The notes beneath the pieces are model-generated. The model did not search any database and was not told the DNA's origin. It saw nothing but the letters and a program-made list of their open reading frames with translations. From Sulfurimonas sp. (GTDB lineage Bacteria; Campylobacterota; Campylobacteria; Campylobacterales; Sulfurimonadaceae), in NCBI RefSeq assembly GCF_041583195.1, contig NZ_JBFHGL010000002.1:1-64000 (forward strand): a DNA stretch of 64,000 nt, read 5' to 3'. Positions within the stretch are counted from its first letter, which is position 1; the number at the start of each line of letters is the position of its first letter. Both the position numbers and the translations under genes were made by a program. Positions 12,617-58,564 of the stretch are shown in pieces.

Positions 12617-14003
12617 TTCTGTACAAAAAACAAAACTGGAGTTTAAACCACAAACTGAAGGAAAAGCAAGTCTTTACGTATGTGGTCCGACTGTTTATGA
12701 TGATGCACATTTAGGTCATGCAAAATCAGCACTTGTGTTTGATCTGCTTTCACGTGTATTAAAAGCAAACGGATATGAAGTAACTTATGCGAGAAATATT
12801 ACTGATATTGATGACAAGATCATAAATAAAGCAAAAGAGCAAAACAAAGATATAAAAGAGATCACAGACTTTTATACAGAGGCTTTTCATAATGAGATGG
12901 CAGAGATCGGTGTTAAAAGACCTGATTTAGAACCAAAAGCGACTGAGAGTTTAGAAGCGATGTATGAGCTTATTCAAAAGCTTATCGATAAAGGTCACGC
13001 TTATGCTACAAAAGAAGGCGATGTATATTTTGACACATCAAGTGACAGTGAGTATCTAACGCTTTCAAAAAGAGTTCAAGATGATGAAGACAAGCAAAAT
13101 AGAGTTGAGAGTTCAGATCAGAAGAAAAACCCTGCCGACTTTGCACTTTGGAAAAGTGTAAAAGACGACTCAATAACATTTGAGAGCCCTTTTGGTGCTG
13201 GTCGCCCTGGTTGGCACTTAGAGTGTTCGGCTATGATTGAGAAGCATCTTGCAAATGAAAATGCTCAAGCTGCAGTTGATATTCACGGCGGTGGAGCTGA
13301 TCTGTTGTTCCCTCATCACGAAAACGAAGCAGCACAAACTAGATGTGCAACTAATCATAAACTAGCTAATTATTGGATGCACAACGGCTTTGTAAATATA
13401 GACGGTGAGAAGATGTCTAAGTCTTTGGGTAACAGCTTTTTTCTTAAAGATGCACTAAAAGAATATGACGGAGAGGTTTTACGCTTTTACCTTTTAAGCA
13501 CGCACTACAGAAGCAACTTCAACTTTAACACAGAAGATCTAAGTAGCTCTAAAAAAAGACTTGATAAGATCTACAGACTTAAAAAACGTCTTTTTGGTTT
13601 AGCTGGAAGTGATGATCAAACAGAGTTTAAAACTAAGCTACTTGAGGCTTTAAGTGATGATCTGAATATATCATCAGCTCTTGCACTGATTGATGAGATG
13701 ATTGCGCAAGCGAATGAAACACTAGACACTGCCGGAAAACATAAACAGCTAAAAAAAGACACACTCTCTAACCTTGCATATATTGAAGAAGTTCTTGGTT
13801 TTGGAGTTAAAAACCCGTATGAGTATTTTCAGTTTGGAATAGATGCAGATACAAAAGATAAAATAGATAATCTGATAGCACAAAGAGATGAAGCAAAAAA
13901 AGCTAAAGACTTTGAGACATCAGACAAGTTAAGAGATGAGATCTTGGCTTATGGCGTAAATATTATGGACACACCTCAAGGTACTTTTTGGGAAAAAATC
14001 TAA
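12603..14003 (+). CDS. cysS: Cysteinyl-tRNA synthetase
   Basis: 466 aa, GTG start inside the end of murJ. Class I motifs: CGPTVYDDAHLGHAKSAL (HIGH variant) near residue 27 and EKMSKSLGN (KMSKS) near 270. Zinc ligands are visible: Cys27 in YVCGPT, Cys in HLECSAM, and His in LFPHHENE. Length is normal for CysRS. The GTG start, set by the family N-terminus MLIFDSV, lies within murJ and so depends on translational coupling. Confidence 0.97.
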   Translation: MLIFDSVQKTKLEFKPQTEGKASLYVCGPTVYDDAHLGHAKSALVFDLLSRVLKANGYEVTYARNITDIDDKIINKAKEQNKDIKEITDFYTEAFHNEMAEIGVKRPDLEPKATESLEAMYELIQKLIDKGHAYATKEGDVYFDTSSDSEYLTLSKRVQDDEDKQNRVESSDQKKNPADFALWKSVKDDSITFESPFGAGRPGWHLECSAMIEKHLANENAQAAVDIHGGGADLLFPHHENEAAQTRCATNHKLANYWMHNGFVNIDGEKMSKSLGNSFFLKDALKEYDGEVLRFYLLSTHYRSNFNFNTEDLSSSKKRLDKIYRLKKRLFGLAGSDDQTEFKTKLLEALSDDLNISSALALIDEMIAQANETLDTAGKHKQLKKDTLSNLAYIEEVLGFGVKNPYEYFQFGIDADTKDKIDNLIAQRDEAKKAKDFETSDKLRDEILAYGVNIMDTPQGTFWEKI

Positions 14004-25852: not shown

Positions 25853-25908
25853 TCGAGGAAATTTTTTAACTTCAATCCTTGACTACTTCTTCTAACCGAT
25901 TCAAGGAT
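25853..25908 (+). promoter_or_regulatory. Alternative hairpins covering the ABC-F ribosome binding site
   Basis: Three segments: S1 TCGAGGA (25853-25859), S2 ATCCTTGA (25875-25882), S3 TCAAGGAT (25901-25908). S2 and S3 are perfect 8-base complements, and S3 contains the AAGGA ribosome site of ABC-F. S1 can also pair with TCCTTGA of S2 (seven pairs, one G-U), so S1:S2 and S2:S3 exclude each other. This is the layout of a translation attenuator, although which state is induced cannot be told. Confidence 0.5.
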
Positions 25909-25914
25909 ACACAT

Positions 25915-27396
25915 ATGCAATCTTTACAACTAAACAACATATATTTTAAATACCCTGCTTCGGCAGACTACATATTCGAAGACTTAAACCTTGAGCTCTA
26001 CCCTGGCTGGAGTGCACTTGTAGGTGCAAACGGTGCAGGAAAGAGCACTCTTTTAAAACTCATTACAAAAGAGCTCTCTCCTGAGAGCGGTAGCGTTATA
26101 AACAATCTTGTCACGGCTTATTGTCCACAGTCAACAGAAAATCTGCCTGAAAATGCCGAAGAGTTTTTTAGCTCATATGAGGGTAATACTTTTAGACTAA
26201 AAGAGCTTTTAGAGATACAAGAAGACTGGCTTTACAGATGGGATACTCTTAGCCATGGCGAGAGAAAACGCATCCAAATAGCAGCTGCTCTTTTTTTAGA
26301 GCCTGATGTACTCATAGTAGATGAGCCTACAAACCATCTTGACATGCAGACTAAAGAGAAACTCTTTAGAGCGTTAGAGTCTTACGATGGCATAGGCATT
26401 TTGGTAAGTCATGACAGAGAACTTTTAGATTTGTTATGTACCAAGACATTTGTTATAAAAAACGGCTCGCTTACAAAGATAAAGTCAAACTTCTCTACTG
26501 CCATAAAAGAGCTTGACACAATAAAGAACTTTCAAAGACAGCAAAAATCTCAGCACTCAAAAGAGCTTAAAAAGGTAGACAAGCAGATCCAAAGTGCAAA
26601 AGAGAGTGTCTCAAGTTCTAAAAGCAGACTCTCACTTAAAAACGTGGACAACAAAGACAGTGACGCAAAAGCAAAAGTCTACCTTGCAAAGATCACCTCT
26701 AAAAACAAGTACGAAGGGCAAGCCGTAAAAACCGCCACTTCAAAAAAAGAGCATCTGTTAAAAGAAGATATAAGCATTGATAAAGAGTATGAGAAAGGGA
26801 TAATGTTTGAGCAAAGCATAGACAACAGAGCCTTCCCTTTTGTTATAGAGAAAACGACTGAAACTATAAACGGTTTTACGTTTAACATACCAAGACTGGT
26901 TATAGAAAAAGGTGATAAGGTCTGGATACAAGGTGACAATGGTAGCGGTAAGAGTACATTTATAAACTATGTACTTTCAACTTTAAAAACAAGCGATTAC
27001 CTCTACATTCCACAAGAGATAAGTGAAGAGGATTCACAGAAACTTTTTAAAGAGATAAAAGAGTTAAGTGATGATAAACAAGGTGAGATTTTTACTACTA
27101 TTACTAGGCTATCTTCCGACCCAAAAGCACTGTTGCAGAGTAAAACTCCAAGTCCGGGAGAGATTCGAAAACTTTTAATAGCAAAAGATTTGTCAAACAA
27201 CCCTCCCCTTATCATCTTGGATGAGCCGACAAATCATATGGATATAGATTCAATTATGAGTATTGAAAAAGCTTTAACAGAGTTTCAAGGTGCGGTTATT
27301 TTCATTAGTCATGATATGACCTTTTGTAAAAGCTTGGCAAATAAAACTTGGAGGGTTGAAAAAGATAAAAAACTTGTTCATATAGTTGAAAAATAA
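25915..27396 (+). CDS. ABC-F family ATPase (two nucleotide-binding domains)
   Basis: 493 aa from the ATG at 25915, which has AAGGA seven bases upstream; a TTG frame 12 codons longer crosses the hairpin and is rejected. NBD1: Walker A GANGAGKSTLL, signature LSHGERKRI, Walker B VLIVDEPTNHLD. A charged linker (about 200-270) joins NBD2 with GDNGSGKST, a degenerate signature SPGEIRKLL and LIILDEPTNHMD. No membrane domain. Such proteins act on the ribosome, as translation factors or antibiotic protectors. The subtype is not settled. It directly precedes the cassette array. Confidence 0.9.
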   Translation: MQSLQLNNIYFKYPASADYIFEDLNLELYPGWSALVGANGAGKSTLLKLITKELSPESGSVINNLVTAYCPQSTENLPENAEEFFSSYEGNTFRLKELLEIQEDWLYRWDTLSHGERKRIQIAAALFLEPDVLIVDEPTNHLDMQTKEKLFRALESYDGIGILVSHDRELLDLLCTKTFVIKNGSLTKIKSNFSTAIKELDTIKNFQRQQKSQHSKELKKVDKQIQSAKESVSSSKSRLSLKNVDNKDSDAKAKVYLAKITSKNKYEGQAVKTATSKKEHLLKEDISIDKEYEKGIMFEQSIDNRAFPFVIEKTTETINGFTFNIPRLVIEKGDKVWIQGDNGSGKSTFINYVLSTLKTSDYLYIPQEISEEDSQKLFKEIKELSDDKQGEIFTTITRLSSDPKALLQSKTPSPGEIRKLLIAKDLSNNPPLIILDEPTNHMDIDSIMSIEKALTEFQGAVIFISHDMTFCKSLANKTWRVEKDKKLVHIVEK

Positions 27397-27441
27397 TATT
27401 TTTAGTGTTTACTTATTTAGCTAGTTTCAAGATTGACTATA

Positions 27442-27458
27442 TATAATGTTCGTTGAAT
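27442..27458 (+). promoter_or_regulatory. Possible array promoter -10 and GTT recombination border
   Basis: TATAAT (27442-27447) is followed at 27452 by GTTGAAT, which fits the integron core G^TTRRRY. This is where the left edge of the first cassette would be expected, 35 bases before its gene. There is no visible attC upstream, so it could be an attI-type or old cassette border. A single 7-base match is weak evidence. Confidence 0.3.
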
Positions 27459-27486
27459 AAATAGTTATATATCAGGAGAAATAGCA

Positions 27487-27879
27487 ATGAGTTTGATTAT
27501 GAGCATAATATTTCTACTCATTCCTTTTGATGTTTTAAGCGTAAACCACTTACTACTATCAAATAAGTTAGGTAAAACTTTGGTTTCAGCTATATCTGCA
27601 ACGTTAGTTTATGTCATTATTGTAGGTAGTGTAATGTACACAAACTATAAACTTGATACTGAACTAGCTGCATTCGACTTAAATGCAGACGGCTTGTTTT
27701 CTGGTGATGAAATTACACCAGAACAAGAAATCGCAATGGATCGCGTAGTTAACGATGCAGGAAGAAATTTTGCCCCAATCACAGGTGCTATTTTCTCATT
27801 TATCTATTTTTTATGCCTCTGGTCAATATTGTCTATCTCATCTTGGGTAAAGAGAATGTATGTCAGTAAAAACATATAA
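27487..27879 (+). CDS. Cassette protein 1: two- to three-span membrane protein with EF-hand-like loop
   Basis: 130 aa with AGGAG before the ATG. Spans at about 2-20, 32-52 and 98-118 flank an outer or inner loop containing DLNADGLFSGDE, which matches the 12-residue calcium-binding EF-hand pattern (D-x-N-x-D-G-x-x-S-x-x-E). The family is not recognised. Its stop codon TAA lies inside the R'' box of the first attC, the tight gene-to-attC packing expected of a cassette. Confidence 0.75.
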   Translation: MSLIMSIIFLLIPFDVLSVNHLLLSNKLGKTLVSAISATLVYVIIVGSVMYTNYKLDTELAAFDLNADGLFSGDEITPEQEIAMDRVVNDAGRNFAPITGAIFSFIYFLCLWSILSISSWVKRMYVSKNI

Positions 27880-27942
27880 CAAATCATTGGAGAGAAACAT
27901 TTGATCCTGCGGCTAAAATATTTCTCAACTCAAACGTTAGAC
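27874..27942 (+). repeat. attC site 1
   Basis: R'' ATATAAC (27874-27880) and R' GTTAGAC (27936-27942). The arms pair as GAGAAACATTTGA with TAAAATATTTCTC (two mismatches) around a small tcctgcggc loop. Most of the sequence is shared with sites 2 and 3 (TTGGAGAGAAA, TTTCTCAACTCAAACGTTA). Confidence 0.88.
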
Positions 27943-27958
27943 TCACATAGGAAAGTAT

Positions 27959-29002
27959 ATGAAAATTTTAGGATTTGTTTCATTTTATACCTCAGTACCT
28001 TTTTGGGCTAATAATTTTATTTCAAGTGAAGAACTTGAAAAAATTGAAGAAGAACAATTAAAAAATAAACTTGAAGAAGTTGTTTTCAGTAAAGATAATG
28101 ATGATTTTTCAATTAAAATTGCTCAAGACGGTATGATTATACTTCGTGTCTACAAATTAGAAAACAATATGGTTCCGTGGAGTGATAGACTAAATAATCC
28201 TGATTATACAATATCAAATGATATTAAAAATTGGAATGATTATATAGAGTATCTAAATGCATTTTATCTCATATTAGATTCATCATTATTTGAATTAGAA
28301 AAAGAAACTTTTTTAGAAATTAATCAATTAACAAAAAAAGATGTTATGAGAGCTTATTTTGCATATTTTGATTCACTTGAAAAATTTCAAGGATGTCAAT
28401 CTGCTAGTCATAATCAAGAGCCAATTGAAATTTATAAAAAAAATAGATTACCTGATAGTAATTACCACTTAATAAAAAGTAAAAATAATAGATTTATCAC
28501 TAAAAAAGTTTTAGAACATACAGTTGAAAATTTTGAATATGCTTGTAAAGACTATAATTTGATAAAAATATTATCAACATTGCTGAGAAGTATCTCAGAG
28601 TATAAAGAAGGCAATAATCAAACTTCAATTTTATTTTCATGGTTTATAATTGAAAGCATTATCATACAAATATGGGAAAAACATATCAACTCTCTAAATA
28701 ATTCATTTGATGATGGAAGTAAAAGAATCAATAAAGCTAGAAAAAAACATTTAGAAAACTTAAGCATAAGTGTAATTATTAATTTACTGGAACTAATGAA
28801 TTTAATTCCATATAAACTATACATTGAAATTGATAAAATTAGATTATGCCGAAACAAAATTGTTCATATAGACCAAGATTATATATCTACGAATAATGAT
28901 GCTAAAGAATCTATACTATGTACAAAGAATTTAATTAAGCTAAATTATAATTTAGATATTTTTCCAAATTTAGGTTTAATAATATCACCTATTACTATAT
29001 AA
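27959..29002 (+). CDS. Cassette protein 2: HEPN-like protein, possible RNase/defence factor
   Basis: 347 aa, AGGAAAG before the ATG; strikingly AT-rich with many Asn, Ile and Lys codons. No signal peptide is convincing. The N-terminal 200 residues are not recognised. The C-terminal part (about 215-345) is helical and has LFSWFIIESIIIQIWEKHI, then IDKIRLCRNKIVHI; R-N-K-I-V-H fits the Rx4-6H active-site motif of HEPN RNases, and the layout resembles Apea-like HEPN proteins. HEPN proteins often act in toxin-antitoxin or phage defence systems, so such a role is inferred only. Complete cassette, gene plus attC 2. Confidence 0.65.
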   Translation: MKILGFVSFYTSVPFWANNFISSEELEKIEEEQLKNKLEEVVFSKDNDDFSIKIAQDGMIILRVYKLENNMVPWSDRLNNPDYTISNDIKNWNDYIEYLNAFYLILDSSLFELEKETFLEINQLTKKDVMRAYFAYFDSLEKFQGCQSASHNQEPIEIYKKNRLPDSNYHLIKSKNNRFITKKVLEHTVENFEYACKDYNLIKILSTLLRSISEYKEGNNQTSILFSWFIIESIIIQIWEKHINSLNNSFDDGSKRINKARKKHLENLSISVIINLLELMNLIPYKLYIEIDKIRLCRNKIVHIDQDYISTNNDAKESILCTKNLIKLNYNLDIFPNLGLIISPITI

Positions 29003-29016
29003 ATGATATTATTAAA

Positions 29017-29087
29017 GTCTAACAAAACCTTGGAGAGAAATAGTTTACCCTAGCGGGCACAACTATTTCTCAACTCAAACGTTACAC
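29017..29087 (+). repeat. attC site 2
   Basis: R'' GTCTAAC (perfect RYYYAAC) and R' GTTACAC (one mismatch to GTTRRRY). The arms GAGAAATAGTT and AACTATTTCTC are perfect 11-base complements around a 15-base loop. It ends cassette 2. Confidence 0.9.
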
Positions 29088-29109
29088 TCAAAAATTAAAA
29101 GGAAATTAA

Positions 29110-29364
29110 ATGTTTAAATATCTTATTACTACGTTTCGTACACCCCAGTTCGACCCATCAGTCATTGACGCACACTATGCTTTTCTCGATGATCTAAAGC
29201 AGCGAGGACACCTTGAACTTGCCGGTCCGTTTACGGACAAGACTGGCGGTGCATACTTGATTAAAGCTGATAATCTTGAAGAAGCCAAGGCTATAGCGTT
29301 CAGTGATCCTGTACATACTTCGAAGTCATCAATCGTCACCGTTTACGAATGGAACGCAAAATGA
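29110..29364 (+). CDS. Cassette protein 3: YCII-related protein
   Basis: 84 aa, AAAAGGAAAT before the ATG. The YCII ferredoxin-like fold is seen: an N-terminal YLITTFRTP strand, an R-x-x-H helix region (HYAFLDDLKQRGHLELAGPF), and the DPVHTSKSS segment with the conserved Asp-Pro. Family function is unclear, with some members having peroxidase-like or dehalogenase-related roles. Its codons use more G and C than the neighbouring genes, pointing to a different donor. A 7-base R''-like box touches its stop codon. Confidence 0.85.
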   Translation: MFKYLITTFRTPQFDPSVIDAHYAFLDDLKQRGHLELAGPFTDKTGGAYLIKADNLEEAKAIAFSDPVHTSKSSIVTVYEWNAK

Positions 29365-29371
29365 GCATAAC
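29365..29371 (+). repeat. R''-box remnant of a lost attC
   Basis: GCATAAC directly follows the YCII stop and is followed by AAAT. The ATAACAAAT stretch is identical to the start of attC 1. There is no R' or arm after it; a normal ribosome site and the VOC gene come next. This suggests the attC once ending the YCII cassette was deleted down to its R'' box. Confidence 0.45.
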
Positions 29372-29391
29372 AAATTAGAGGAAAATATAAA

Positions 29392-29832
29392 ATGCGATTT
29401 GCACACACAAATATAGCGGCAAGAGATTGGAAAAAATTATCAGACTTTTATATAAAAGTTTTTGAATGTAAAATTAAACCTCCGCAGAGAGATTTAAAAG
29501 GTGAGTGGCTTGATAAAGCAATCGGTATAAAAAATGCTAGACAAACGGGTGTGCATTTATCTCTTCCAGGATATGAAAACCCACCGACATTAGAAATATT
29601 TAGTTACGAAAAATTTATAGATACAAATCCAATTATGGCTAATCAAATTGGTTTTACCCATATTGCATTTGAAGTGGATGATGTAGATGCAATACTAACA
29701 AAAGCTTTAAAATATGGAGCTACAACATTAGGTGAAGTGATCGAAAATGAAGTTAAAGGTGTCGGTATGTTAAAATTTACATATTTACGAGATATAGAAG
29801 GAAATATTATAGAAATTCAATCTTGGAATTAA
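29392..29832 (+). CDS. Cassette protein 4: VOC/glyoxalase-fold protein
   Basis: 146 aa. Paired beta-alpha-beta-beta-beta modules: FAHTNIAARDWKKLSDFYIKVF at the start and GFTHIAFEVDDVDAI in the middle, with metal-ligand candidates His (FAHTN), His (FTHIA), and Glu (GNIIEIQSW). It could be a glyoxalase, dioxygenase or fosfomycin/bleomycin-type resistance protein; sequence alone does not decide. It shares a cassette with the YCII gene (no full attC between them). Confidence 0.85.
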   Translation: MRFAHTNIAARDWKKLSDFYIKVFECKIKPPQRDLKGEWLDKAIGIKNARQTGVHLSLPGYENPPTLEIFSYEKFIDTNPIMANQIGFTHIAFEVDDVDAILTKALKYGATTLGEVIENEVKGVGMLKFTYLRDIEGNIIEIQSWN

Positions 29833-29850
29833 GCTTTTAAATGTTAGTAG

Positions 29851-29919
29851 CTCTAACAAAACCTTGGAGAGAAATATTTGACCCTGCGGCTCAAATATTT
29901 CTCAACTCAAACGTTAAAC
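29851..29919 (+). repeat. attC site 3
   Basis: R'' CTCTAAC (first base off consensus) and R' GTTAAAC (perfect). The arms GAGAAATATTTGA and TCAAATATTTCTC are perfect 13-base complements around ccctgcggc, the same loop as site 1 apart from one base. Confidence 0.9.
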
Positions 29920-29934
29920 CACAAAGGAAACATC

Positions 29935-30252
29935 ATGAAAAAAATCTATCTTCTCCTGGCTATTTTAGGGTTCATCTTGCCGCTTTCACAGTTCATTTCA
30001 TGGCTTTTTGACTATGGAATCGATGTGCCGCTCATGTTCAGGAGTGTCGCAGAAGATAAATTGAGCTTATTTGCTTGGTTGGACGTGATCGTGTCGGCGC
30101 TTGTTTTAATCGTTTTTATCGTTTATGAGGGCAAGAAAAAGTCGATGCCGAGATTATGGGTACCTATCGCAGGTACATTGTGCGTCGGTGTCTCTTTTGG
30201 GCTTCCGTTATTTTTGCTGTTGAGAGAAATGCATCTTGAGAAAAATGCGTAA
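29935..30252 (+). CDS. Cassette protein 5: DUF2834 membrane protein
   Basis: 105 aa from the ATG at 29935, with AAAGGAAA upstream; a longer TTG frame would begin inside attC 3 and is rejected. Three membrane spans (about 3-24, 44-61, 74-95) with LPLSQFISWLFDYGID and VGVSFGLPLFLLLREMHL, the DUF2834 pattern. Function is unknown in the family. Codon use is richer in G and C than the chromosome around it. Complete cassette with attC 4. Confidence 0.82.
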   Translation: MKKIYLLLAILGFILPLSQFISWLFDYGIDVPLMFRSVAEDKLSLFAWLDVIVSALVLIVFIVYEGKKKSMPRLWVPIAGTLCVGVSFGLPLFLLLREMHLEKNA

Positions 30253-30310
30253 AGAGTCGGGGATGTATTATACGACGACAAGAAACAGGTTTTCTCTTGA
30301 GTCAGATTAA

Positions 30311-30381
30311 ATCTAACAAAGTAGTGGGGCCAATCAAAAACCCGAGGACGGCTTTTTGATTGCTCATTTTAAACGTTAGGC
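30311..30381 (+). repeat. attC site 4
   Basis: R'' ATCTAAC and R' GTTAGGC, both matching consensus. The arms CAATCAAAAA and TTTTTGATTG are perfect 10-base complements around cccgaggacggc. It differs from sites 1-3 in arm sequence, so it came with its cassette from another source. The gene-free 58 bases before it hold nothing recognised. Confidence 0.9.
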
Positions 30382-30407
30382 TTTAAAATTTAATAAAGGA
30401 ATTTTAA

Positions 30408-31298
30408 TTGAAATCACTGAAATTTAAAAAGATAGACGCCTTTGCATCTTTCAACTCTAGCGGTAATCCTGCCGGAGTTATTTACTTAGATAACTGTAAT
30501 GACTTATCTGCCGAAGAGATGCAACAGATTGCCAAAGAACTAAAAGGTTTTGTAAGTGAAGTTGGATACATCTGGGAAAACGAAGACGGAAGTTTTGGGT
30601 TACGTTATTATTCAAGCGAGAGAGAAGTCGAGTTTTGCGGTCATGCGACTATTGCCATTATGTACAACATCATAAAAAGTAGATCAGATCTTTTGGCAAA
30701 AAGTGAACTCACTATTCATACGAAAAACGACACTTTGGTAGTTGAAAACCATATCCCGCAAAATGATTCGGTTTTTATTACCGCACCTGCTCCAAAATTT
30801 ATAATGAAAGATATTAATCAAGAGGATATTGCGTCCTCTTTAAAGATAGATGCAAACATGATAGATGACCGTTTTGATATCGCCATTGTTAATGCAGGAC
30901 TTGAAACACTCATTGTCCCCGTAAAAAATCTTGAGGCGACTTTGAATGTTAATCCCGATCTGGTAGAGTTAAACGTGTTTTGCAAAAGCATAGGAGTTGA
31001 CATTATTATCTTGTTTACGGATGAGTGTTTTAGTGAAAAAAGCAGTTATCGTACAAGAGTGTTTGCCGCGACGTTCGGTTACCTTGAAGACCCTGCGACG
31101 GGCTCTGGAAACAGTGCTTTTGGAAACTATCTTCTTCAAAGAAACATATGGGATGGCGAACTGATGAACATTGAGCAAAATGCTCTGAAAGAGAACTTTA
31201 ATACGGTAAAACTTACTACAAAAAAAGAAGAAAGTATCAAGCACGTGCTTTTTGGCGGTAGTGCAAAAGTTAAAATCGATGGAAATTATTTACTTTAA
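30408..31298 (+). CDS. Cassette protein 6: PhzF-family isomerase-like protein
   Basis: 296 aa, TTG start with AAAGGA. It begins KKIDAFASFNSSGNPAGVIYL, the PhzF signature, and has the catalytic Glu in REVEFCGHATIAI (about residue 74-81) and EDPATGSGNSAFGNYL in the second half. PhzF-fold proteins catalyse proton shifts/isomerisation, best known in phenazine synthesis, but no other phz genes are here and the substrate is unknown. It shares a cassette with the downstream GNAT gene, 11 bases away. Confidence 0.9.
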   Translation: MKSLKFKKIDAFASFNSSGNPAGVIYLDNCNDLSAEEMQQIAKELKGFVSEVGYIWENEDGSFGLRYYSSEREVEFCGHATIAIMYNIIKSRSDLLAKSELTIHTKNDTLVVENHIPQNDSVFITAPAPKFIMKDINQEDIASSLKIDANMIDDRFDIAIVNAGLETLIVPVKNLEATLNVNPDLVELNVFCKSIGVDIIILFTDECFSEKSSYRTRVFAATFGYLEDPATGSGNSAFGNYLLQRNIWDGELMNIEQNALKENFNTVKLTTKKEESIKHVLFGGSAKVKIDGNYLL

Positions 31299-31309
31299 AA
31301 GGGAAATGG

Positions 31310-31867
31310 ATGCAGTTAAAAGTAGCAGAACTTTCAGATATAGACAAAGTGTTAGAACTTCACTATAAATATCAGATTGAATCAATAGCTGAAGAAGATA
31401 AAAAAGACGGATTTGTTACAACGCCGTTTACAAAAGAGCAGTTGACAGACCTTATAGATAAAGAACAAGGTCTGTTTATAGCGATAAAAGACAACAGTGT
31501 TGTTGCTTATGTTATGGCGGCATCTTGGCAATTTTGGTCAAAATGGCCCATGTTTGAACACATGATAAAAGATTTGCATAACTTGGAATACTTGGGTCAA
31601 AAGTTGAGCGTGGACAATTCCTATCAGTACGGGCCGATCTGCATAGACAAAAGTGTTCGAGGAAGCGGTGTATTGGAAAAAATATTTGATTTTTCAAGAG
31701 AACATATGTCCAAAAGATACCAGATATTAGTAACCTTTATCAATAAAATCAATCCAAGATCTTACGAAGCCCATGTAAGAAAACTCGGTCTTGAAGTTAT
31801 ACAAGAGTTTTCTTATAACAACAACAACTATTACGAACTGGTTTATGACACATCAAAAAAAGTCTAA
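31310..31867 (+). CDS. Cassette protein 7: GNAT-family acetyltransferase
   Basis: 185 aa, AAAAGGGAAATGG before the ATG. GNAT motif A is YGPICIDKSVRGSGVLEKIF, with the V-R-G-S-G-V acetyl-CoA loop, and motif B near INPRSYEAHVRKLG. The N-terminus LKVAELSDIDKVLELH is typical. The acceptor may be an antibiotic, amino acid or protein; undetermined. Its stop codon TAA lies within an R''-like box, as in cassette 1. Confidence 0.87.
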   Translation: MQLKVAELSDIDKVLELHYKYQIESIAEEDKKDGFVTTPFTKEQLTDLIDKEQGLFIAIKDNSVVAYVMAASWQFWSKWPMFEHMIKDLHNLEYLGQKLSVDNSYQYGPICIDKSVRGSGVLEKIFDFSREHMSKRYQILVTFINKINPRSYEAHVRKLGLEVIQEFSYNNNNYYELVYDTSKKV

Positions 31868-31868
31868 C
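31862..31868 (+). repeat. R'' box of a truncated attC at the right edge of the array
   Basis: GTCTAAC, followed by AAA, is identical to the start of attC 2, and TCTAACAAA is shared with sites 2-4. The sequence then passes at once into the 3' end of the minus-strand rbsK-like gene (stop at 31875), so the rest of this attC is missing. Confidence 0.6.
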
Positions 31869-31874
31869 AAACTG

Positions 31875-32741
31875 TCACACCAATAATCTAGGGATAGAAT
31901 CAGCAGCCCCTTTTCTTGTTACACAGATACTTGAAGCTTTTATAGCTGCTTCTAGACATTTTTCTATTGTCATTCCGCGTGAAAACTCGGCTAAAAAGTA
32001 ACCTATAAAAGTATCGCCCGCTCCGGTGGTATCTACAGCTTTTACTTTTAGAGCATCTACACTTATAACTTTTTTGCCCTTTGCATAGATCACACCTTTT
32101 TTGCCAAGTGTTAAAACAACGGAACTTTTTGGGTAAAGTTTACCCATAGCTTTTATGATCTTCTCAGGCTTTTTCTCGCCGCTAAGTGCTTCACCTTCGG
32201 TCTCGTTTATTATAAAAATATCTACAAGTTCAAGTGGGTAGTCTTTAACAGCGTCACTCATCGGTGCAGGGTTAAAAACTACTTTTAGACCTTTGCTTTT
32301 TGTTTGTTTTATTATTTTATCGACATCATTTATCTCATTTTGTAAAAGTACTATATCCTCTGTTTTTGCAGTTTTTAGTACTTTTTCTATATCAGAAGAT
32401 TTGTAAGTAAGATTAGCCCCGCCGTGGATAATTATGGCATTCTCACCCTCTTTGTTTACCTGTATAACTGCATGTCCAGTAGGTGCTTTAACTGTATTTA
32501 CAAAAGATGTATCTATACCCTCTTTTTCCATCTTCTCTTTTAGCCAAATACCGTCTTTGCCAACCTTACCTACATGGACTACATCTGCATTTGCACGAGC
32601 TAAGGCTATAGACTGGTTAGCCCCTTTACCACCGCTAAAAACTGCGTAGCTATTACTGCTTAGCGTTTCACCTGGACGTACAAAATGATCTACACTATAC
32701 ACATGGTCTATATTTATAGATCCGAAATTAATTATCTTCAC
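31875..32741 (-). CDS. rbsK: Ribokinase/PfkB family carbohydrate kinase
   Basis: 288 aa from a GTG at 32741 that fits the family start (KIINFGSINIDHVY); an ATG five codons earlier (32756) is also possible. PfkB features: GGKGANQSIALARA, and the catalytic AVDTTGAGDTFIGYFLAEF with Asp as base. It phosphorylates a sugar, by family ribose, or a related substrate. Its start lies within the end of the upstream gene. Its 3' end is the junction with the cassette array. Confidence 0.87.
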   Translation of the reverse strand: MKIINFGSINIDHVYSVDHFVRPGETLSSNSYAVFSGGKGANQSIALARANADVVHVGKVGKDGIWLKEKMEKEGIDTSFVNTVKAPTGHAVIQVNKEGENAIIIHGGANLTYKSSDIEKVLKTAKTEDIVLLQNEINDVDKIIKQTKSKGLKVVFNPAPMSDAVKDYPLELVDIFIINETEGEALSGEKKPEKIIKAMGKLYPKSSVVLTLGKKGVIYAKGKKVISVDALKVKAVDTTGAGDTFIGYFLAEFSRGMTIEKCLEAAIKASSICVTRKGAADSIPRLLV

Positions 32742-33198
32742 GGTAAGGGCTTTCATGACGTGATGCTTTAAATCCATGTTTAACAAATGCATGCAGTGTT
32801 TCATCGTGCAGTTTGATCAGCTCACTGACTTTTTCATCATCTGAAGTAAGTGTGACTTTTATACCATCATCAAGCATTTCATAGTTCATATTTATCTGTT
32901 CTCTGTGATCAAAAAGCTCTATAAACAAAGGATCCCATGAACGAATGGCGCGGTTGCCGTCAAACCTCTTTTTCATACCAAGTGCGTGGTCTTGAAGTAT
33001 TTTTATAAGCTCTTGATCTTTGGATGTAACACGAGTGATCGTCTCAATGCCAGACTCTGTCTCTTTTGTAATACGTTCTATCTCTTCATGGCGTACTAAA
33101 AGTTCATGGTAAAGTTTTGAATCCGCAATATGCTGTGGATCACTACCGCCACGACCACGCTTGAAAACTTTTGCTTTTTTAAAGTTTGTAAAATCCAC
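32728..33198 (-). CDS. Conserved-type hypothetical protein, helical
   Basis: 156 aa, soluble and charged, with no signal peptide. It is rich in His, Asp, Glu and Lys. Visible features are a basic N-terminus (KVFKRGRGGSDP), a GIETITRVTSKDQELIKILQ helix and the segment HALGMKKRFDGNRAIRSWDP, then HDETLHAFVKHGFKAS near the end. The His-rich helices might bind a metal or heme, but no known motif is complete. It overlaps the start of the kinase gene by 14 bases. Confidence 0.7.
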   Translation of the reverse strand: MDFTNFKKAKVFKRGRGGSDPQHIADSKLYHELLVRHEEIERITKETESGIETITRVTSKDQELIKILQDHALGMKKRFDGNRAIRSWDPLFIELFDHREQINMNYEMLDDGIKVTLTSDDEKVSELIKLHDETLHAFVKHGFKASRHESPYREDN

Positions 33199-57727: not shown

Positions 57728-58564
57728 CTAAATATTTGAAAATGGGTGACATACATCTACAGTCTCACTCAAATGCTGTTTTTGAATATGTGTATATACT
57801 TGGGTTGTTATAAGAGAAGCATGACCTAAAAGCTCTTGAACAACTCTTAGATCAGCCCCTCCTGTTATAAGTGCAGTTGCGTATGAATGGCGAAGTACGT
57901 GTGGAGATACGCCTAAATATTTTTGAGTTATCTTAAAAGCAGATACCCTGCTTAATCTATCACCCTTATAATTACACCATAAAAAATCTTTTTCATACGG
58001 CATGGCATCTAAATACCTTTTTAGCGCATCTAATGCCACTTTTGCAACCGGTACCAAACGTTCTTTATCACCCTTAGCGTGACGCACAAGAAGCCATTCT
58101 CCATCCATATCTTCTTTGGTAAGGCTCAAACACTCGCTGATCCTCACACCTGAAGCATATAAAAAGTATAAAAGTGCCGCATCACGCAGACCGAGCCAGT
58201 TAGTAGTATCACATAGTTTTATACCGGCACTTAGCTGATCAAGTGAGAGAAACTTTGGTAAAAGTTTTGGTATCTTTGCACTTTTTAATTTTGTTTTTTC
58301 CTGCACAAAATTACTACTGTAACAAAAATCGAAAAATGCATTTACAGATGAGAGTTTACGGTTTAGCGTGCGTTTGTTTTCATACTTTGAGAGTAGGTTT
58401 AAAAGTTTGTCTGAATCTATGTTAATTAAAGGTGAGTCTAGTTCTGCCTCTATGGATGAGAGATCACCCATATAAGCCTCAATTGATTTTTTGTTTAGTG
58501 CTTTTGTTACACTTATATATTCTAAAAAAGCTTCTAACTCTTTACTGAACTGAGATGTACTCAT
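57728..58564 (-). CDS. Tyrosine recombinase, XerC/XerD-type
   Basis: 278 aa. N-terminal core-binding domain about 1-95; catalytic domain with Arg in LYASGVRISECLSL, Lys in HAKGDKERLVP, His-Arg in SPHVLRHSYATAL, His in LGHASLITTQ and Tyr in VYTHI: all residues of the active site. The integron-specific insertion between the second and third patches is not visible, so it is not IntI. It is probably the chromosome dimer resolvase. It overlaps the lipoprotein gene by 23 bases. Confidence 0.93.
   Translation of the reverse strand: MSTSQFSKELEAFLEYISVTKALNKKSIEAYMGDLSSIEAELDSPLINIDSDKLLNLLSKYENKRTLNRKLSSVNAFFDFCYSSNFVQEKTKLKSAKIPKLLPKFLSLDQLSAGIKLCDTTNWLGLRDAALLYFLYASGVRISECLSLTKEDMDGEWLLVRHAKGDKERLVPVAKVALDALKRYLDAMPYEKDFLWCNYKGDRLSRVSAFKITQKYLGVSPHVLRHSYATALITGGADLRVVQELLGHASLITTQVYTHIQKQHLSETVDVCHPFSNI

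Follow-up and report, generated by a model that had tools for sequence, protein, structure and literature searches.

A question is raised by the initial 64 kb of contig 2 in a draft genome of Sulfurimonas (2.38 Mb, 22 contigs, 99.9% complete), the stretch of DNA that is called the window here: how did a row of integron cassettes come to stand in a chromosome in which no integron integrase (IntI) is detected? Seven plus-strand open reading frames (ORFs) and four attC recombination sites are located there between the gene of an ABC-F type ATPase (25879-27396) and an rbsK-like kinase gene (31875-32804, minus strand). The locus is very probably a former complete chromosomal integron from which the integrase gene intI and its promoter region have been deleted, leaving attI with its embedded promoter, four mobile cassettes and one immobilised cassette, and it would have been a satellite of some other integron for as long as an integrase remained. 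The recombination sites are the following, with the crossover point marked by a slash:

attI, 27389-27468, plus strand: crossover G/TT at 27464/27465; conserved TATAAT -10-like box at 27442-27447 (putative cassette promoter, Pc).
attC1, 27876-27939, plus strand: 63.7 bits, E 8.3e-11; fold z -1.8.
attC2, 29019-29084, plus strand: 66.4 bits; fold z -4.9.
attC3, 29853-29916, plus strand: 68.4 bits, E 9e-12; fold z -5.7.
attC4, 30313-30378, plus strand: second attC type; 63.2 bits; fold z -4.8.
Truncated attC5, 31862-31871, plus strand: R'' half-site only (GTCTAACAAA); relatives have an attC or its remnants there, before rbsK.

The attC scores in this list were obtained with a covariance model (R1) built from 26 attC of intI-adjacent arrays in other genomes, with all sequence of the own genome excluded. 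It matched exactly four attC in the 64-kb window, all on the plus strand, with 63-68 bits and E-values from 9e-12 to 1.1e-10, and no further attC was found in the window by R1 up to E=10. Models of this kind, made from other genomes, replaced a naive regular-expression scan for R'' and R' boxes combined with folding, which had yielded many false attC. The four same-orientation sites are those proposed in a preliminary description of the window; the lengths of 69-71 bases given there include flanking bases, the R''-to-R' cores being 64-66 nt, and both attI and the truncated attC5 had been missed. As that description had stated, attC1-3 are close to each other and attC4 is distinct, but the two types coexist within single IntI-bearing arrays of congeners, so that the difference is no sign of mixed origin. 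With DNA folding, the bottom strands of attC2-4 fold much better than shuffled sequences (z -4.8 to -5.7), and the weaker fold of attC1 is explained by mismatches in its arm. Several co-oriented attC with conserved R'' and R' boxes and imperfect palindromy, as expected of an integron array, are present, and an Rfam scan of the array region gave no match. In one congener array (L044), three identical GC-rich attC-like sites of 79 nt were observed on the minus strand at 13491, 14379 and 14939, a type that recurs at loci L043, L045, L047 and L048.

At the head of the array, the attI was recognised by R2, a sequence-only model built from 17 intI-adjacent attI, with 38 bits and an E-value of 2.5e-10. 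At IntI-bearing loci such as L023, L025, L028, L029 and L031-L035, which come from several families of the order, the same attI is found about 250 bp from a divergent intI. The intI-adjacent attI end with AATAAATAG/TTA, and the invariant columns of their alignment include the TATAAT-like -10 box and ATAAATAG. This box has been read as the cassette promoter Pc and is predicted to be active as such. In the reversed-sequence control neither R1 nor R2 reached 20 bits; sequence-only hidden Markov model controls at 20 bits or more gave 0 matches in reversed sequence against 243 in forward sequence, a forward set that is enriched by construction. One element of a complete integron, the attI, is in place. 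The end of the ABC-F frame (27380-27396) corresponds to intergenic attI flank in the related genome G282, and its last codons and stop therefore derive from a fusion.

The other element of a complete integron, an intI with the patch III insertion beside attI, was not found. In the whole genome, the best match to the integron integrase family TIGR02249, in an XerD-like protein, was 59.5 bits per stretch and 97.6 bits for the whole protein, with a cut-off of 265, which extends to the genome the preliminary statement that no IntI is encoded here. A tblastn search with 18 congener IntI proteins revealed no remnant near the three arrays of the own genome that were examined. With at least two attC and no integron integrase nearby or elsewhere in a 99.9% complete draft, the array is a cluster of attC sites lacking an integron integrase (CALIN), and its four to five cassettes without intI are not the large, vertically inherited array with functional intI of a sedentary chromosomal integron. 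The recombinase encoded at 57728-58564 (minus strand) has been considered as an IntI and rejected, with 223 bits as XerD and 98 bits as integron integrase (cut-off 265); it is a trap for IntI searches made without a cut-off.

Evidence that an intI once stood at this place comes from the genome G463, in which locus L121 is orthologous on both flanks: it has ABC-F on the upstream side (82.5% nucleotide identity) and rbsK/glnS on the downstream side. In the stretch that separates ABC-F from attI, this locus retains intI codons 293-315 (the last 23, with 91% identity), fused to the start region of intI and to a partial intI-attI spacer. This sequence of about 236 bp is absent from the window, where ABC-F abuts attI directly. 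Pieces of intI are also found at five other intI-less attI (the last 16 codons at L129, the first 36 at L147, the first 28 at L175, and short pieces at L144 and L153), and remnants of the intI-attI spacer lie at about 25 orphan attI, including one on contig 6 of the own genome. Presence and absence of intI at orthologous loci was observed when comparing G479 with G343/G319, G420 with G439/G333, G328 with G463, and G405/G469/G129 with G009. Movement of attI as a free unit was also considered and rejected, because the intI stubs and spacer remnants beside many orphan attI favour deletion.

The same condition is widespread in the genus. Among 120 Sulfurimonas genomes, IntI exceeded the cut-off in 47 and could be detected in 60 (13 of them with only sub-threshold pieces of intI), attI was present in 101 and attC in 96; attI and attC without IntI were found in 37 genomes, a number inflated by gaps in metagenome-assembled genomes (MAGs). 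Because such gaps inflate IntI absence, mapping was carried out in 18 better assemblies, 11 of them single-contig. These contain 70 attI, namely 11 beside intI, 32 intI-less with attC and 27 with neither. Counting same-strand attC no farther than 6 kb downstream, 32 of the 59 intI-less attI are followed by attC, with a chance expectation of 0.41 for all 70, and for 130 of the 137 attC a same-strand attI lies no farther than 30 kb upstream. Some complete genomes carry several attI and no IntI (four attI in G326, four in G333 and eight in G343).

The window genome itself has five attI at threshold, four of which, on contigs 2, 4, 5 and 6, are followed by attC. On contig 5 an intI-less, attI-headed array lies between typA and msrA (attI at 119564-119648, minus strand; L134, the contig 5 array in L041), with the crossover G mutated to A (AATAAATAATTA), so that this attI is predicted to be dead. 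An attI and one attC are found on contig 6 (53136-53214, plus strand; L136/L042), where part of the intI-attI spacer is kept, and likewise on contig 4 (187952-188034, plus strand; L132). The fifth, weaker attI (contig 5, 30635-30716, plus strand; L161; 30.6 bits) precedes one ORF of 231 amino acids and has no detectable attC after it.

Cassettes at such intI-less sites differ between close relatives. The clearest pair is L120 in G282 and L122 in G326, both without intI or spacer; over the 3.5 kb that lead up to the attI crossover they form an unbroken alignment of 94% identity. Up to the crossover the identity is 96-100%, and beyond it drops to 57%, level with the background (median 57%, 95th percentile 62%), before the flanks resume farther on at 96%. 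Similar but less clean drops at the crossover were found in the pairs L126/L178, L118/L128 and L129/L140, and when the window is compared with G282 and G463, an identity of 84-89% falls to 47-51% at this point. The layout is not a fixed one, because the rbsK-side attI has different cassettes in every relative examined. A cassette change after local loss of intI needs IntI from elsewhere, as excision and insertion both require it, and these comparisons argue well, if indirectly, that IntI acted in trans at orthologous attI that had already lost their intI. At another site (L114 in G282, L171 in G326) the flanks are orthologous at 93% and the attI are of different types, as if a whole integron had been replaced.

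In the mechanism proposed, IntI would have inserted cassettes as circles at attI, the newest cassette adjoining attI and being transcribed from its TATAAT promoter. An attI without local intI would still be a valid target for IntI made elsewhere in the cell, becoming a satellite of another integron, and this role would last until the last integrase was lost; the window array would now be frozen because no IntI is left in the genome. A more tentative proposal, which may or may not hold for Sulfurimonas as a whole, is that of a hub with satellites: scattered and mostly intI-less attI would be kept as landing pads that carry a promoter, and a single integrase, itself gained by transfer and lost, would fill and empty them in trans; CALINs would be working outposts and not only ruins.

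Several observations weigh against deletion of a local intI followed by service in trans. The window contains no intI remnant, the deletion there being deduced from the ortholog; IntI could lie in a gap of the 22-contig draft; the fold of attC1 is weak; and a gltX-like gene replaces ABC-F upstream in other relatives, a sign of rearrangement at this locus. Among the satellite inserts, some in G326 and G282 have no detectable attC, so that part of the inserts are not proven to be cassettes, and action in trans is deduced from comparison of genomes. The lack of any intI trace in the window would also suit an IntI that placed the cassettes at some random, attG-like secondary site, a place without any attI or intI from the start, which is one of the proposed origins of CALINs (reviewed in PMC8618304). 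This is very improbable here, being largely refuted by the full attI before cassette 1, homologous over about 80 bp to intI-linked attI, and by the intI stub at the same place in G463; the position of 130 of the 137 attC of the genus sample downstream of an attI is also against it. The shared 80-bp leader might instead be a conserved promoter carried along with first cassettes, and it does have the invariant TATAAT-like -10 box; but the leader stands beside intI with unrelated first cassettes, homology stops at G/TT in pair after pair, and the cassettes themselves start at TT, so that little credence is given to this reading. Among the options named in the preliminary description (a CALIN, a deletion remnant or the distal portion of a longer array), the deletion remnant is the correct one, and the array is rightly called a CALIN. 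The third option, in which the intI-proximal part would lie elsewhere after rearrangement, could appeal to the upstream flank, which varies among relatives (ABC-F or a gltX-like gene) and shows that rearrangement occurred, but it is extremely improbable: arrays grow from attI, and with attI immediately ahead of cassette 1, only intI is lacking on the proximal side; in relatives, moreover, the 3' end lies at the same rbsK-like gene.

A more serious alternative is that each orphan attI lost its intI after the final cassette change, independently in each lineage, and that simple decay makes action in trans unneeded. At several loci intI is indeed present in one species and deleted in another, and decay of intI is common, as indicated by the 13 of 60 IntI-positive genomes with sub-threshold pieces only. 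This explanation is nevertheless unlikely, because G282 and G326 have a common intI-less junction at L120/L122, 94% identical over 3.6 kb, and yet differ from the crossover on, the three less clean pairs behaving alike; identical independent deletions would be required.

The genes that flank the array and the cassettes carried by it are the following:

ABC-F type ATPase gene, 25879-27396, plus strand: upstream flank; its final codons extend into the attI flank; common to G463 (82.5% nucleotide identity).
Cassette 1, 27465-27936, plus strand: membrane protein of 130 amino acids (ORF 27487-27879), one stretch of which, DLNADGLFSGDE, is EF-hand-like; attI and attC1 are its limits.
Cassette 2, 27937-29081, plus strand: protein of 347 amino acids, family not recognised (ORF 27959-29002).
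Cassette 3, 29082-29913, plus strand: YCII-domain protein, 29110-29364 (Pfam YCII 3.4e-12), and VOC/glyoxalase protein, 29392-29832 (Glyoxalase 4.6e-7).
Cassette 4, 29914-30375, plus strand: DUF2834 membrane protein, 29935-30252 (Pfam DUF2834 1.2e-29).
Cassette 5, 30376-31876, plus strand: PhzF-family isomerase, 30408-31298 (PhzC-PhzF 4e-43, TIGR00654 155 bits), and weak GNAT-like protein, 31310-31867.
rbsK-like PfkB kinase gene, 31875-32804, minus strand: conserved 3' flank; orthologs of 68-85% identity in G282, G326, G143 and G467.

Cassette boundaries coincide with G/TT crossovers, and the cassettes mostly contain one or two co-oriented ORFs. The same rbsK-like gene is the 3' boundary of the array in five genomes, and before it G326 has an intact last attC and G282 a degenerate one, this site being truncated both in the window (R'' only) and in G143. 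Truncation of attC5 makes the last cassette, with the PhzF and GNAT-like genes, immobile, and the array as a whole is presumably immobile at present. No defence match was obtained with PADLOC among the cassette proteins, and none of their relatives turned up in the fetched loci of other genomes; the cassette 2 protein has a 28% relative on a Paraburkholderia replicon. Near its C-terminal end, this protein, which no family library recognises, has an R-x4-H stretch (RNKIVH) like that of HEPN proteins, only a lead.

Integrons in epsilonproteobacteria had been reported by 2007-2008, about one third of intI being predicted as non-functional (PMC2426708), and the phylum is among those listed with integrons (PMC8618304). 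The preliminary remark that integron arrays of this phylum have been little described is correct only in part, as these listings and a further one (PMC10295459) exist. The Sulfurimonas arrays, found in sulfur oxidisers that are abundant in vents, aquifers and sediments, are of significance for the origin of CALINs, by integrase loss or by insertion at stray sites, which is debated because outside class 1 integrons the attI has seldom been identified. Here attI has been defined across the phylum, nearly all arrays of one genus lie at attI, and intI has been deleted locus by locus. The cassettes of some sites appear to have kept changing after local loss of intI, which leads to a testable model of several attI and one integrase acting in trans. 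No description of many dispersed, trans-served attI per chromosome was found in the open-access literature that was searched.

Among known systems, the Vibrio superintegron is similar in being chromosomal, with related attC and captured accessory genes. It is one large array with a functional IntI, whereas Sulfurimonas has short arrays at several attI. The Xanthomonas integrons of the ilvD locus are also alike, since an ancestral chromosomal integron, an often truncated or absent intI and CALINs at conserved loci are described for them (PMC12444791); in the text consulted, however, the Xanthomonas intI is at one locus (ilvD), and in Sulfurimonas up to about eight attI per chromosome are found at unrelated loci, with zero to two intI. 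Within the same genus, In0 and a CALIN are listed for Sulfurimonas autotrophica, in the accessible part of the source as a table entry without analysis of attI or of intI loss (PMC10295459). CALINs, widely proposed to be degraded integrons, are defined in IntegronFinder by at least two attC and no IntI nearby, as in the window, and this program seeks no attI outside class 1 (PMC9024848), so that the window array would be reported as a plain CALIN. It differs from one in that the Sulfurimonas attI is retained and identified, loss of intI is seen at orthologous loci and nearly all arrays of the genus are headed by attI. The array thus belongs to a known kind, the CALIN from a decayed integron, and is an unusual variant of it, in which attI is retained, several are present per chromosome and they are apparently served in trans.

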